Both the position numbers and the translations under genes were made by a program. Positions 53,813 through 61,653 of a DNA stretch of 64,000 nucleotides are shown in pieces. The stretch is from assembly GCA_937922675.1 (NCBI GenBank), contig CALAJN010000005.1, forward strand, positions 124,001 through 188,000. The letters run 5' to 3'. The notes beneath the pieces were generated by a model that did no database searches, was not told the DNA's origin, and saw only the letters and a list, made by a program, of their open reading frames with translations. The DNA comes from an uncultured Granulosicoccaceae bacterium (GTDB taxonomy: Bacteria > Pseudomonadota > Gammaproteobacteria > Granulosicoccales > Granulosicoccaceae). The stretch's first letter is position 1. Each line of letters opens with the position of its first letter.

Positions 53813-54018
53813 CGATTGTATTGGCTCCAGCGGACGCGGTCGTCCGGGTGATCAGATAGGTCGGCCGCCTCGAACTGACGGTCCAGCTGGGTGCGTAGTG
53901 TAACGATTCTGAGCGAACTGTGACGCTGCCGACACATCGCATTCGCGGACAGCTGGATACTTGGCAATACAAGCACATACCTCTGGCTGATCTCGGCTCG
54001 GCCTGGATGCAACGCTTC

Positions 54019-56352
54019 ATGATGCAGCGACACGATCACCCACCGTGCACACGCCATCGTCGAATGGCGGCCGTGGCCATAGTGGGGTCACCGTCAGCCT
54101 TGTTGCTGGCCAGCGTGTGCGCTTGCAGTGTGGTGTCGATTGCACACGCAGACCCAGACGGTGCTTCCAGCGATGTGGCGCCGAAGGCCATCGTGACCGT
54201 GCGCCCGAGTGTTGCGCGGCAGTGGACTGATGCAGCCCTGTTTGCTATCCGCCGGGATTTGGCACGCCCGACGGTACACGCACGCAATCTTTATCACTTG
54301 TCTGCGGCCATGTACGACGCGTGGGCGGTGTTCAACGCTCCGTCTCGAACGCTCTTTTTGTCGCCAGCTGCCGATGAACCGGAGTGCCGCCTGACAAGCT
54401 CGCAGCGCGACCGACTGTACACTGCAGCGAACAACAGCCGGTCTCTGGACGCTGATCGCAGACGCGCCATTGGTTACGCTGCCTGGCGCCTGTTGGCCGA
54501 GCGTTATTCCCGCTCCAGTACCGGAGGAGATATCCGTGACGAGCTACAGCGGGTTGCTACAAATCAACGCCTGACAGCTCAGGTAAGGATCAACGATACC
54601 GCTGCTGCGCTCGGGCTGAAGATCGCCGAATGCATTATCAAGCGCGGTCTTGAAGACGGCTCGAATGAGCGAGAGGACTACGCCAACCGCGCCTACCAGC
54701 CTGCCAACCCGCCTATGGACCCGTCAAGCTCCGGGGTCGGAGAGCTGACCGATCCGGACCGATGGCAGCCCTTGAAGCTGACCCGGTTCATCGATCAGTC
54801 TGGCAACGCCGCCGATGCCGCCCATTTTATTGGGGCCGAGTGGGGTGGACTTGCGCCTTTCGCGATGACGCCGAATGATGCTTCAGTGATCACCTGCCAT
54901 GACCGGGAGCATCAGGTGTGGCTCGATCCGGGCCCACCACCGCTCTCGACTGGTGACGATGCCGCAGAGTACCGCGATAATTTTGTGTTGACGGCCCTGT
55001 GGTCTGCGCATCTGGACCCTCGCGACGGCGTCATGATCGACATCTCGCCTGCCGTGGCGGGCAACGCCTTGCCCATGAAAGACAGACTGACAACCAAGCG
55101 GGAGCAGCTCGATGCCTATGACGCACTTGAGGGCGGCATGGAGAGCCTGGGCCACGCCATAGACCCTGCGACGGGCCAGCCATATGCTGCCAATCGGGTA
55201 CTGCGTGGCGACTACACACGCGTGGTGGCCGAGTTCTGGGCGGATGGCCCCGATAGCGAAACCCCTCCCGGCCACTGGTTTCGAATCTATAACGATCATG
55301 TGGCCGACCACACCGCATCCACTGTCGGTTGGACCACGCTCGAACGTGCTCTGGGCGCTCCTCTCACCGCTCTCGATTTTGACATACTTGCCTATCTCGC
55401 ACTCGGCGGCGCGATGCATGACTCGGCCATAGCGGCGTGGAGTGTCAAGGGCGCCTACGACTACGTACGTCCCGTAACGGCGGTGCGTTTCATGGCAAGC
55501 CAGGGTCAGTCCAGTGACCCATCAGCCGACAACTACTCGCCCCTCGGACTACCGCTGGTCCCCAATGTGATCGGTGTCGTTGAACCGGGCGATCGGCTCG
55601 CCCGCGGCAAGCCTGAAAACATCGGTCAAGCTGCCTTGTATGCCTGGCGCGGTCCGAATGCCATCTCTGACCCTGCTACCGATACTGCAGGCGTGGGCTG
55701 GATACTCGCCAAAGACTGGTGGCCCTACCAGCGACCCGACTTTGTGACCCCGGCTTTTGCAGGGTATGTGTCTGGGCACTCCACATTTTCGCGTGCGGCT
55801 GCCGAGGTGCTCGAGCGGCTGACGGCCGACGCCTTCTTCCCCGGGGGTATAGCCGAGTTTACAGCGCCAGCAAACGAGTTCCTGGTGTTCGAACGTGGCC
55901 CCAGCAAGGATGTGGTGTTGCAGTGGGCAACGTATCGGGATGCTGCCGATCAAACCAGTTTGTCGCGAAACTGGGGCGGCATCCACCCGCCCGCAGACGA
56001 TCTGCCGGGACGCCGCATGGGTGCCACCCTTGGTGAAAGCGCCTGGGCTCACGCGCTTGCGTCATTTACAGGTGACAAAGCACTTGCTGAGGCGCTTGCG
56101 AATGCGACCACAAATGCCTCGCGGTCCGTGCCTTCCGAGCAAACTGCCATGCCAGCCAGCATCGCGCCTGAGCGCCCGACTGTCATGACCCACGACCACA
56201 CGCCAGGCAATCACGCGTCCAGGGGAGCTGAACCCGCAGTGACACAAGATGCTCAAGACGCTGGTCCGGAACACACTTTAACGGCGCAGCCTTCCCTCAT
56301 GGCGCGCACCGCACGAGCCGGTTGTGCCAGTACCAGCGACTCACGCGCTTGA
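54019..56352 (+). CDS. Exported vanadium-dependent haloperoxidase-like protein
   Basis: 777 residues from ATG 54019; the frame opens at GTG 53920, and ATGs 54007, 54022 and 54064 are alternatives. A basic n-region (TRHRR), hydrophobic core and Ala-rich end (SIAHA) predict export. The vanadate-binding set of the PAP2/haloperoxidase superfamily is complete: KGAYDYVRP (K477, R484), YVSGHSTFSRAA (S585-H587) and SRNWGGIHPPADD (R650, H656). Could be a haloperoxidase or a phosphatase-like relative; halide specificity cannot be read here. Residues after about 690 are a low-complexity Ala/Thr/Pro/Ser tail. Followed by two paralogous lipoproteins. Confidence 0.83.
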   Translation: MMQRHDHPPCTRHRRMAAVAIVGSPSALLLASVCACSVVSIAHADPDGASSDVAPKAIVTVRPSVARQWTDAALFAIRRDLARPTVHARNLYHLSAAMYDAWAVFNAPSRTLFLSPAADEPECRLTSSQRDRLYTAANNSRSLDADRRRAIGYAAWRLLAERYSRSSTGGDIRDELQRVATNQRLTAQVRINDTAAALGLKIAECIIKRGLEDGSNEREDYANRAYQPANPPMDPSSSGVGELTDPDRWQPLKLTRFIDQSGNAADAAHFIGAEWGGLAPFAMTPNDASVITCHDREHQVWLDPGPPPLSTGDDAAEYRDNFVLTALWSAHLDPRDGVMIDISPAVAGNALPMKDRLTTKREQLDAYDALEGGMESLGHAIDPATGQPYAANRVLRGDYTRVVAEFWADGPDSETPPGHWFRIYNDHVADHTASTVGWTTLERALGAPLTALDFDILAYLALGGAMHDSAIAAWSVKGAYDYVRPVTAVRFMASQGQSSDPSADNYSPLGLPLVPNVIGVVEPGDRLARGKPENIGQAALYAWRGPNAISDPATDTAGVGWILAKDWWPYQRPDFVTPAFAGYVSGHSTFSRAAAEVLERLTADAFFPGGIAEFTAPANEFLVFERGPSKDVVLQWATYRDAADQTSLSRNWGGIHPPADDLPGRRMGATLGESAWAHALASFTGDKALAEALANATTNASRSVPSEQTAMPASIAPERPTVMTHDHTPGNHASRGAEPAVTQDAQDAGPEHTLTAQPSLMARTARAGCASTSDSRA

Positions 56353-56527: not shown

Positions 56528-57577
56528 GTGAGACAAGCGAAGATGCGCCCGATTTATCGAGCACGTTACAAAGGAACTGCAGTTGCTGCTCTGACGCTGT
56601 TCGTCTTGTCTGCATGTTCAACGTCCTCGGGCCCGGTGAATCCGATAGACACAGAACCGACCGACGCAGCGGCCCAGAGGTCAACAACAGCGACAGACAT
56701 GGATGATCTGATCGCTCGCAGTCTCATCTCGGCGACCGCACAGATCAATGATTTGCCGCCGTGGTCCACGACGGTTCAGATCAACGTTCCCACCTCTTCA
56801 TTCGGCAACGCACTTTTCAACGCACTCGAAGAGGCAGGCTATGGCGTGCAACGGGTGCCTGATGATCAAGGTACAAACTACATCTCTTATCGCTCTTCTA
56901 TCGAACAGTCAGAATCCGGCCGTGTACACACGTACGGTATGTGGGTCGGGGGGCGAATTGCACTGGAGCGACAATTCAGGGAAACGGGTGGAACGTTGCT
57001 ACCTGATTCACCTCTGGTCCTCGTTGGCGTACGGCCAAAAACGATAAACATCGATGATCGAGGGTTCGCCTCACAGACACGCGCCGGCATAGAGTTTCCA
57101 AGTGGTGTTGAGTTCCGTGACGAAGCCTACGAACTCATTCAGTCTCGCGAGCTGGGTAGCATCACAACCGGTAAAGGCAACGGCTCCCTGTCAGCCGCCA
57201 GACGTATTTCCGAAATTCAGGTAGAAGAAATCCTTGCGCCCTATCGTCCAAAGCGACAAGCCACATTGAGTTTTCCATCGGCCGCCAACAACGTTCTGGG
57301 CGACCCGAACAAGCAGGCCATCGTTGCCATCTCCGACGCCTACAGGCCATCGACCGATATCTTTCTGGTTTCGGGATGTCGCCCGGCAACGTTCTCATCG
57401 CCGGCGGAGCCAGAAGCAGATTCCATTGCGCGCACACAGCGTGTACGAGCAGAGCTGCTCAACCGCGGCTACGCCAGTGGCGTCATTCTAGAGGAGAACT
57501 GCGAGCCAGGCCGTTACAACGAAAAACTGCCGCGAAGAGCCGTGGTGTTAACGCTGGAGCGTTTGCGCGACACCTGA
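56528..57577 (+). CDS. Predicted lipoprotein A of a tandem paralogous pair, divergent OmpA-like C-terminus
   Basis: 349 residues from GTG 56528, with AGAGG about 9 bases upstream; ATG 56543 is possible and the frame opens earlier at 56324. Signal with lipobox VLSACS. N-domain contains the STTVQINVPTSSFGNALFNA block, then GYGVQRVPDDQGTNYISYRS. The C-domain (from about residue 245) runs from FPSAANNVLGDPNKQAIVAI through FLVSGC to an alpha-helix ARTQRVRAELLNRGYAS and PRRAVVLTLER. This layout recalls OmpA C-terminal domains but without the canonical NxxLSxxRA. Two Cys (SGC, ENC) are shared with the next gene. Function is unknown. Confidence 0.75.
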   Translation: MRQAKMRPIYRARYKGTAVAALTLFVLSACSTSSGPVNPIDTEPTDAAAQRSTTATDMDDLIARSLISATAQINDLPPWSTTVQINVPTSSFGNALFNALEEAGYGVQRVPDDQGTNYISYRSSIEQSESGRVHTYGMWVGGRIALERQFRETGGTLLPDSPLVLVGVRPKTINIDDRGFASQTRAGIEFPSGVEFRDEAYELIQSRELGSITTGKGNGSLSAARRISEIQVEEILAPYRPKRQATLSFPSAANNVLGDPNKQAIVAISDAYRPSTDIFLVSGCRPATFSSPAEPEADSIARTQRVRAELLNRGYASGVILEENCEPGRYNEKLPRRAVVLTLERLRDT

Positions 57578-57618
57578 CCCTGAAATCAGCAAAACAGATT
57601 CATAAAAAGAGTTAGAAC

Positions 57619-58668
57619 ATGAAGACGCAACCCTTGTACGGCATCGCAGTGCTAGCGCTCGGCCTTCTGGTAGGCGCTTGCAGCTCCACTGGTGACAATG
57701 CCGAAATCCCTGGCCTGCTGGACTCGCGCGATGAAGCGGCCATTGCCGAAAACCTGGTGCTTACCATCGCTCAAGTGCCTTCACTGAGTCCCCTGATCAA
57801 TACCGTGCAGATGTCACCGCCGGTTACCAGCTTCGGCAAGCGCGTTGCCAGTCTGCTCGCCGATAACGGGTATGGCATCCAGACAGTTGATGGCGATACC
57901 GGAGAATTTTTTGTGCGCTATCGAGAAGAGGAAATCCGCAGCGAGCTGGGTCTCGAGACCAGCTTTGTTGTAGCCATAGGAGACGTTTCAGTGGCGCGTA
58001 GCTTTGACCTGAGCGAGAGTAATAACCCTGTCCCCATATCTCCACTCTTTGTAGCTGGCGCGCCGGAGTTCGATATCGTATTGAATGATGAGGTATTTGA
58101 AAACGTCTCGAGCGAAGTGTCCTACGCACTTTTTGACGACGTATCAAGCCCGCAGGTGTTTGACTTTGACACCCAAACGACCCAGGCCATCACCAGCGAT
58201 GACGACGTCATCACTATCACAGGCGTCGCAAACAACAATGCAACTCCGGCAGGCACTCAAGCACTGTCTCCGGAGAGCATTATCAGACGAAACGTCTACG
58301 ACATCGTTGAGAGCAACTTCGCCGATATCTTTGTTGACTACGATGATGTCAAGTCAGAGGTACTTGTTTTTGGAAATGACTCGATGCGACTTGGCGACAA
58401 CAACAAGCGCATCGTTCAACAGTACGTAGAGCTGTTCAATCCCGAGACAGACCTTGTGTCTATCATCGGCTGCAGTCATGGCAACACAGCAGTGCGCAAC
58501 GGTAACGCTGTTCTGGCTGTAGGGCGCGCAAACCGCGTCAAGGAAGCTTTTCTGTTCGCAGGCCTCGATGACGAAAAAGTGCTGGAAGAGGGCTGCTGGG
58601 CAGGGGAATACCATGAGCGAATGCCACGCCGTGGGGTGCTCCTGACGTTGAAGCGCCGCGCTGGTTGA
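57619..58668 (+). CDS. Predicted lipoprotein B of the tandem pair, divergent OmpA-like C-terminus
   Basis: 349 residues, exactly the length of lipoprotein A. Lipobox LLVGAC. Shares the N-domain NTVQMSPPVTSFGKRVASLL and GYGIQTVDGDTG, and the C-domain DNNKRIVQQYVELFNPETDL, VSIIGC, VGRANRVKEAFLFAGL, EEGC and MPRRGVLLTLKRR. It has an acidic, Asp/Val-rich central part of about 60 residues (VFDFDTQTTQAITSDDDV) that A lacks in the same form. Begins 41 bases after A with a fair ribosome site, so cotranscribed. The two conserved Cys could form a disulfide in the periplasm. Function is unknown. Confidence 0.78.
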   Translation: MKTQPLYGIAVLALGLLVGACSSTGDNAEIPGLLDSRDEAAIAENLVLTIAQVPSLSPLINTVQMSPPVTSFGKRVASLLADNGYGIQTVDGDTGEFFVRYREEEIRSELGLETSFVVAIGDVSVARSFDLSESNNPVPISPLFVAGAPEFDIVLNDEVFENVSSEVSYALFDDVSSPQVFDFDTQTTQAITSDDDVITITGVANNNATPAGTQALSPESIIRRNVYDIVESNFADIFVDYDDVKSEVLVFGNDSMRLGDNNKRIVQQYVELFNPETDLVSIIGCSHGNTAVRNGNAVLAVGRANRVKEAFLFAGLDDEKVLEEGCWAGEYHERMPRRGVLLTLKRRAG

Positions 58669-60582: not shown

Positions 60583-61653
60583 CTACAGACACAGACCGAA
60601 CCGAAACTCCTCTTCGCCCAGACATTCAGCAGGTGCAATCCACTCTCGCTCGATCACTGTCTCGTTGCCGTCACTGTCGGTCAACTGATAGATCAACGTA
60701 GCGTCTTGCGAACGTGAAAGCACACGCAACGCACTTCCGTCGCCACTCGTCATCAAAAGCACCCCCTCGGCCCAGGCATCACCTCGATGCGACAAAACAC
60801 CGCTCTCATCGCCATTGGCATAGACCACGGCCGGGTCAATGCGGATCTGCCCGACAAACGGCCCCTCAGCCAGCGCCCCCAAGGCCAGATCAATGTCGGC
60901 TGCACCAGATTCTGAAAACTGGTGCACCACCCCATCCGGCGCACCGTCTTGCAATATGGAGTGGCTAAAGCTCTGTTCATAGACAACATTACTGGCCGAT
61001 TCAGTGTTGCCGAGGTAGCTACGCGTGTAGTCGCTCACCTCAGCAGAGTAGAGGTAGCGTTCGCTGGTCCCTGAAACGGTGACGCGCTTGCTGATGGATC
61101 CGGTCACGGCAACGGACTCATCATCATGGGTAAAGGCTGTGTCGGATAACCCGTAGACGGTGACCCACTGTGCTGCGCTACGACTGGCAGGCGATGAACG
61201 CTCCCACTCGTAGCTGAGCGCTCCATCGAGTTGCCCCAGATCGACGTTGCAGGACTCAAAGGAGATCGAGCTGCGCACGATCAATATCGGTTCACGAGCG
61301 TTGTCAAACACCGGCGCTGCGCTGACCAGACGACTGGCTGTGCCACCACCAGGGCAGTCAATAACGCGTGTTCCGGTTTCGGTCTCGAACAAGGGCCCAA
61401 ATCCGTTGACAACAATATCGTCAACCGCGGTCAAAAGCGTATTCACCCCGTCAAGTCTCAACATGGCCAAAGCGGACGACAGCCGAGTTTCGTAGTTGAG
61501 GGCACTTATCGATAGCGAGTCATCGCCGAAGACAGGCTCTTGCTCCGTGCCAGGACCTGCATCCACCGACATGGAGCCATCATTGTCGGAACAGGCTCCC
61601 AACAGCAGAAGTGTCGCGCACAGCGTGATGGATATTTTCAGGCGCATTTGCAT
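60583..61653 (-). CDS. Predicted lipoprotein, unknown function
   Basis: 356 residues. Lipobox LLLGAC. Mature chain is acidic and rich in Ser, Gly and Val. I see alternating beta-like segments (SISKRVTVSGTSERYLYSAE, NVVYEQSFSHSIL) and three further Cys: a pair at CPGG and SFESC, and two near the end (AECLG, GLCL). No domain recognised. It is 58 bases downstream of der on the same strand; two small palindromes lie in that gap. Its ATG 61653 is followed by a normal n-region (MQMRLKIS). Confidence 0.72.
   Translation of the reverse strand: MQMRLKISITLCATLLLLGACSDNDGSMSVDAGPGTEQEPVFGDDSLSISALNYETRLSSALAMLRLDGVNTLLTAVDDIVVNGFGPLFETETGTRVIDCPGGGTASRLVSAAPVFDNAREPILIVRSSISFESCNVDLGQLDGALSYEWERSSPASRSAAQWVTVYGLSDTAFTHDDESVAVTGSISKRVTVSGTSERYLYSAEVSDYTRSYLGNTESASNVVYEQSFSHSILQDGAPDGVVHQFSESGAADIDLALGALAEGPFVGQIRIDPAVVYANGDESGVLSHRGDAWAEGVLLMTSGDGSALRVLSRSQDATLIYQLTDSDGNETVIEREWIAPAECLGEEEFRFGLCL

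Follow-up and report, generated by a model that had tools for sequence, protein, structure and literature searches.

The window (the whole 64,000-nucleotide stretch analysed, from an uncultured Granulosicoccaceae bacterium) contains two adjacent rightwards-transcribed genes, P0001 and P0002, that code for tandem lipoprotein paralogues, each a fusion of a TrbH-like N-terminal domain with an OmpA-like C-terminal domain. They belong to a multi-copy family present across the genus, in which a thioredoxin-like gene is the usual partner of the tandem loci, and both of these features had been overlooked by a first-pass annotation of this DNA. We tentatively favor a reading in which the two products would be heteromeric outer-membrane lipoproteins, with a TrbH-like docking domain and a thioredoxin-tended, disulfide-containing OmpA-like domain at the wall. 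The features of the pair, with the gene upstream, are as follows.

53920..56352, forward strand: vanadium-haloperoxidase-like protein (PF22778, E 5.9e-7), outside the conserved system
56528..57577, forward strand: P0001, GTG start, 349 aa, type-I TrbH-OmpA fusion lipoprotein with a degenerate C-domain
56615..56617, forward strand: P0001 lipobox Cys30, followed by Ser (from the sequence)
56702..57121, forward strand: P0001 TrbH-like N-domain (family N-domain HMM, 134 bits)
57188..57568, forward strand: P0001 OmpA-like C-domain, degenerate (family C-domain HMM, 110 bits)
57377..57379, forward strand: P0001 conserved Cys284 (alignment, rows of family alignment A3, member count)
57500..57502, forward strand: P0001 conserved Cys325 (alignment, A3 rows, member count)
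57619..58668, forward strand: P0002, 349 aa, canonical TrbH-OmpA fusion lipoprotein
57679..57681, forward strand: P0002 lipobox Cys21, followed by Ser (from the sequence)
57733..58134, forward strand: P0002 TrbH-like N-domain (profile comparison, family HMM, model)
58147..58260, forward strand: P0002 linker, residues 177–214, probably disordered (pLDDT below 50)
58279..58659, forward strand: P0002 OmpA-like C-domain (family HMM, Foldseek, VIA, hhalign)
58471..58473, forward strand: P0002 conserved Cys285, at the position of the His in the OmpA GHTD motif
58594..58596, forward strand: P0002 conserved Cys326, in place of the aromatic residue of the OmpA GYG motif

The two proteins align by BLASTP with 27% identity over 364 columns (E 7e-33), far beyond chance, which bears out the earlier proposal that they are duplicated lipoproteins; the shared blocks reported with it (VQ..P..SFG, GYG-Q-V, G-C, an RV helix, E-E-x-C, and PRR-V-LTL) occur in the same order in this alignment, and both lipoboxes can be read directly from the sequence, at Cys30 and Cys21. 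A cysteine occupies the lipobox column in 60 of 66 alignment rows of the family. The identical length that had been emphasized is real in that both proteins are 349 aa, but it is a coincidence: the P0001 frame is open from a GTG at 56324 (417 aa) and yields 349 aa only if the GTG at 56528 is the start, the pairwise alignment needs 42 gap columns, and the relatives, with those broken or cut by contig ends counted, are 232 to 462 residues long. The genes are separated by 41 bases on the same strand, and so probably form one operon; a promoter scan returned none, and a terminator scan returned two against 3.0 expected. Serine after the lipobox cysteine directs a lipoprotein to the outer membrane by the general sorting rule, and both proteins would therefore fit that location. 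The full-length model of P0002 has a mean pLDDT of 83.5 and a pTM of 0.52.

The N-domain is related to TrbH along most of the length of that protein. Compared by hhalign with 17 plasmid TrbHs, the family N-domain gave a probability of 98.7% (E 1.9e-16, 100 columns, covering 43–160 of 165 in TrbH), against 0.5% for the C-domain and 0.1–0.2% for five column-shuffled alignments, and we therefore describe it as TrbH-like. Searches with the single proteins are weaker: a TrbH HMM finds P0001 at E 1.9e-7 and P0002 at E 3.7e-4, and the NCBIfam TrbH model finds P0001 at E 5.3e-5 (23.2 bits, under the curated cut-off of 162), with no TrbH match at E up to 1 for P0002 in NCBIfam or for either protein in Pfam. 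The first-pass statement that no family with this arrangement is known thus stands insofar as no Pfam or NCBIfam family is reached above cut-off, but it missed the TrbH-like domain. When 72,556 plasmid records were searched by tblastn with a family member linked to a type IV secretion system (T4SS), 96 of them matched at E up to 1; the best 20 are without exception annotated as TrbH, at E-values that are weak (7e-4 to 0.5).

In a review table (PMC12624023), TrbH is given as the counterpart of VirB7 and placed in the outer-membrane core complex; DotD is likewise given as a VirB7 equivalent. Like TrbH, the family proteins are lipoproteins; unlike TrbH, which has about 160 aa, they add a linker and an OmpA-like domain to reach about 350 aa. 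The Xanthomonas VirB7, as described in PMC3093366, is also a T4SS lipoprotein enlarged by a globular domain, but that domain is of the N0 type and the predicted layout of the family N-domain differs from it. Plasmid R751 (L102:30557-30985) carries TrbH and a separate, unfused OmpA-family protein downstream of the same transfer genes.

Modelled alone, the P0002 N-domain has a pLDDT of 93.1 and a pTM of 0.88, with a predicted layout of a helix followed by strand-helix-strand-strand-strand-strand. A Foldseek search of the PDB with this model returned nothing at E 0.001 or below (best E 0.14, to unrelated chains), and sequence and structure searches for TrbH relatives gave no convincing match to natural solved chains. 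Several candidates were set aside: Tim21, whose top VIA rows have Z of 4.6 and 4.3; designed proteins, with matches of about 30 residues (best E 1.7e-5 and 0.0052) that we take as chance; and plant endo-glucanase, xyloglucan-modifying enzymes, and an oxidoreductase, whose solved-structure sequence matches at E 0.04 or worse are also taken as chance. No N0-type match of the secretin N0/DotD kind is listed for the N-domain, for which the best VIA Z is 4.6. LptE gives VIA Z of 3.2–3.8 and an hhalign probability of 51.5%, over 38 columns only, against at most 1.4% for eight shuffles; TrbH itself scores 10.3% against LptE, and this likeness is a lead only.

The C-domain has the OmpA fold, as had been suggested. 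By Foldseek it matches 3td5, an OmpA-like domain whose structure was determined with a peptidoglycan peptide, at E 9.4e-6; its top two VIA matches are 9uu2 (Z 13.1) and 3td5 (Z 12.9); and hhalign pairs it with 20 OmpA-domain stretches of the same genome at 95.9% (E 5.7e-9), with the N-domain control at 0.7%. P0002 falls short of the PF00691 gathering score (18.8 versus 27.2 bits), and P0001 has no OmpA match in Pfam at E up to 1. Chains of the Dot/Icm core complex, which we take to be DotK, are also among the Foldseek matches of the C-domain. DotD and DotK are separate proteins in Dot/Icm, whereas here there is one fused protein.

With residue positions assigned from the OmpA alignment and motif spacing, Cys285 of P0002 takes the place of the His in GHTD, His287 that of the diaminopimelate-binding Asp, Arg303 that of the diaminopimelate-binding Arg, and Cys326 that of the aromatic residue in GYG; in Acinetobacter baumannii OmpA, Asp271 and Arg286 are reported to bind diaminopimelate (PMC5974059). 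P0002 resembles OmpA and Pal (PF00691) in keeping the N..L[AS]..RA..V block together with the diaminopimelate-site Arg, a position conserved in 115 of 117 two-domain members and in all 87 that lie outside the type-I clade described below. At the Asp position, 34 of those 87 have His, 24 Asn, 11 Leu, and 8 Thr; Asp is present in 22 of the 30 type-I rows, where it may reflect an alignment shift. The earlier view that the canonical peptidoglycan-binding residues are absent therefore holds for the Asp, replaced by His287, but not for Arg303 and the preceding Asn, which P0002 retains. With this wall-binding Asp gone, the ligand may be something other than peptidoglycan.

The two conserved cysteines reported in the first pass are present in 66 of 66 A3 rows; exactly two C-domain cysteines occur in 115 of 117 two-domain members, the members without the pair being one each in L187 and L201, and the N-domain has no cysteine in 116 of 117. 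They set the family apart from OmpA, and none of the 20 OmpA stretches of the same genome has a cysteine at either motif. The pair is also kept in members at single loci that have no thioredoxin-like gene, so that a plain structural disulfide is possible.

These properties bear on an alternative that we consider somewhat unlikely, in which the family would be an ordinary Pal-like tether from outer membrane to wall, with a structural disulfide, a thioredoxin-like gene serving folding or other purposes, and a TrbH-like domain that is generic. The OmpA fold, the universal Arg outside the type-I clade, and the persistence of the cysteine pair at single loci without a thioredoxin-like gene agree with a tether of this type, against which stand the altered Asp position, the pairing with a degenerate paralogue and the several copies per genome, both unexpected of a Pal, and a thioredoxin-like neighbour at 22 of the 32 tandem loci.

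As judged by sequence matches, the family occurs in the Granulosicoccaceae only, among the genomes and collections searched. A search with P0002 matched 32 of 95 genomes, and none of the 47 genomes of the same class that lie outside the taxonomic family. The A3 profile at E 0.001 matched 41 of 48 Granulosicoccaceae genomes when weak, generic OmpA matches are counted; strong matches occur in about 30 of the 48, comprising 26 of the 27 genomes in the genus plus four genomes that belong to two other genera, and the remaining matched genomes have N-domain-only or generic OmpA stretches. Those 26 genomes have two to seven A3 matches each, pieces and a few generic OmpA domains counted. A pattern scan of a named species collection gave 60 matches, of which 42 proved to be relatives, each in a record titled Granulosicoccus or Granulosicoccaceae; the scan used two short C-domain patterns from closer members, so divergent or N-domain-only members elsewhere could be missed. 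Plasmids searched with P0002 gave nothing at E 0.01, and viral contigs gave pattern matches but no confirmed relative. The titles and abstract openings of literature on Granulosicoccus lipoproteins and type IV secretion, on TrbH structure, and on TrbH with OmpA describe no such family, and literature searches on disulfide OmpA-like domains with thioredoxin-like proteins and periplasmic lipoproteins returned nothing.

The genome that carries the window has the pair and a third copy, with a stop between its N-domain and a C-domain remnant (L004:7663-8581, G000:C4). This third copy has two recurrent genes beside it, one for an acidic membrane protein, which turns up near 12 of the 91 distinct loci described below, and a small one that by eye resembles HspQ.

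The 118 loci collected, including the window and L004, reduce to 91 distinct loci, of which 32 are tandem and 59 single; the single loci comprise 44 with two-domain members, 13 with the N-domain only, and two with the C-domain only. Trees of the 117 two-domain members were built with FastTree and IQ-TREE, the 13 N-domain-only and two C-domain-only single loci being excluded. FastTree groups P0001 with 29 other members (local support 99) in a clade that we call type I and whose C-domains are degenerate; 30 of the 32 tandem loci contribute one member each, L053 and L187 being the exceptions, and none comes from the 44 single two-domain loci. IQ-TREE recovers the same clade with support of 99 but without the T4SS-linked member, giving 29 of 32 tandem loci, and the tree in which that member is held inside the clade is better by 16.9 log units (AU p 0.81); in an earlier tree of 69 rows the type-I rows grouped weakly (SH-aLRT 33), with the T4SS-linked row outside. 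Because the trees place it differently, the first gene of the T4SS-linked pair is likely, not certainly, a type-I member. FastTree places P0002 in another clade, of 20 members (support 96), among which are the partners at L047 (T4SS), L061, L063, L072, L125, L126, and L129 as well as members from single loci. At L053 (7509-10618), two similar tandem members are found near a TerY-type vWA gene, with phosphatase-, kinase-, and caspase-like genes recognized by eye in the surroundings.

A thioredoxin-like gene is the immediate neighbour at those 22 tandem loci. The products are 160–192 aa with a signal peptide by eye and a CxxC in all listed rows but one, and six of the seven that were scanned pass the Pfam AhpC-TSA cut-off, the seventh being just below. 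One further thioredoxin-like gene, at L094, adjoins a member cut by a contig end. Every thioredoxin-like gene found in the 91 loci is at distance 1 from a family member; the search used a model built from ten such neighbours and covered the fetched family loci, so that copies elsewhere in those genomes are uncounted. The tandem loci without this neighbour are the window, L047, L053, L063 (at a contig end), L187–L190, L192, and L193. For the window pair the nearest homologue is on another contig (L142:8560-9318, G000:C8), where it adjoins a frame that looks by eye like a membrane sensor kinase. The thioredoxin-like neighbourhood and the conserved cysteine pair together suggest a redox function, although neither proves one. 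A solute-binding protein of family 3 is encoded within three genes at 21 of the 32 tandem loci, and is present at L187–L190 despite the missing thioredoxin-like gene.

Six genes around the pair in the window do not share in this conserved setting. The earlier suggestion that the pair works with the haloperoxidase-like enzyme upstream is not supported: tblastn with the haloperoxidase found no match at E 1e-3 in the 117 other loci, and the same holds for the SMC, CysZ, M23 peptidase, and Der genes and the hypothetical gene at 60583. Conservation of the pair together with its neighbour, which had been put forward for checking, is thus seen for the pair, with tandem arrangements at 32 loci, but not for the haloperoxidase. 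The hypothetical gene (60583-61653, reverse strand) codes for a lipoprotein-like protein of 356 aa with no Pfam or NCBIfam match at E up to 1. Elsewhere, the single members at L037, L043, L044, and L178 share a conserved neighbourhood, which at L043 includes a weak DUF2946 match and MbnP, MauG, and copper-chaperone PCuAC genes.

A few members lie within or near secretion or export loci. Genome G003 has two members in one T4SS operon: the first comes immediately after VirB10/TrbI, and a bacterial-PH-domain gene separates it from the second. The same operon encodes homologues of VirB6, VirB8, and VirB9 and a frame resembling VirB4 (TraG P-loop); the linked members thus follow TrbI, in contrast to the TrbG-TrbH-TrbI order of R751. 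In genome G012 a single member comes after two genes, one for a TrwB/TraG-type coupling protein and one with DUF4400. A FliR/SctT-family gene is found within three genes of members at five of the 91 loci (L137, L138, L172, L198, and L095, the last being the same place as L135), with N-domain-only members as its immediate neighbours at L137, L138, and L198, and export genes confirmed by Pfam (FliP, FliR, FlhB/YscU, and the C-domain of the type III secretion ATPase), which may be of injectisome or flagellar type, occur at L135 (= L095), L136, L137, and L138. Together with the listing of TrbH as a VirB7 equivalent (PMC12624023), these placements are what would be expected if the family served envelope secretion machines as accessory lipoproteins, having spread by copying to many loci and acting at each as docking rings or pilotins. 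We regard this as quite unlikely, as TrbI is present in two of the 27 genomes of the genus, 25 giving none, against family members in 26; neither CagX nor TrbI was found in a search of the genome carrying the window; and the majority of the 91 loci lack every secretion marker used. P0001 and P0002 themselves, with two domains each and no CagX or TrbI in their genome, do not occupy the position between TrbG and TrbI that is typical of TrbH.

RcsF is the comparison for a lipoprotein that signals to an inner-membrane kinase, and we give little credence to a similar stress or redox sensor here, since, although the thioredoxin-like homologue of the same genome adjoins the sensor-kinase-like frame, response-regulator-like genes occur by eye within three genes at four of the 91 loci and kinase-like genes at three, and family 3 solute-binding proteins are common beside tandem loci, only L061 among the regulator loci is tandem and all three kinase-like loci are single, so that a kinase does not regularly accompany the pair.

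In the heteromeric, thioredoxin-tended arrangement that we tentatively favor, the lipid would anchor P0001 and P0002 in the outer membrane, the TrbH-like (VirB7-equivalent) N-domain would dock on an outer-membrane or other envelope partner, and the flexible linker would let the OmpA-like domain reach the peptidoglycan layer. The two C-domain cysteines would form a disulfide at the rim of the groove that binds the peptide in OmpA, and the periplasmic thioredoxin-like protein would set or repair it, so that contact with the wall or a partner would follow the periplasmic redox state. Subunits of the P0001 type, with their degenerate groove, may be obligate partners of the canonical subunits, because they are found only beside one. 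The periplasmic adaptor of the first-pass annotation would fit this picture. The domain identities are firm and, like the cysteine conservation, the pairing and the gene neighbourhood, come from computation, whereas lipid sorting, hetero-oligomer, disulfide, redox control and wall contact are inferred.

A broader proposal, which we think unlikely, is that the family represents a new envelope module, in which a TrbH-like domain independent of T4SS is joined to a disulfide-gated OmpA-like domain and multiplied throughout a bacterial family as obligate hetero-pairs with their own periplasmic thioredoxin, so that outer-membrane machines would be attached to the wall in a redox-switched way, and which has moved into T4SS and type III export loci as well. 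The order of events could be either that a conjugation lipoprotein was domesticated and fused, or that a chromosomal lipoprotein was lent to a T4SS. TrbH has been treated as part of the conjugation machine, and the several chromosomal copies per genome, in a genus whose genomes mostly gave no TrbI, suggest that TrbH-like domains have a life of their own. The family provides a large alignment and a high-confidence model for the TrbH-like domain, and it points to a testable redox link from the outer membrane to the wall.
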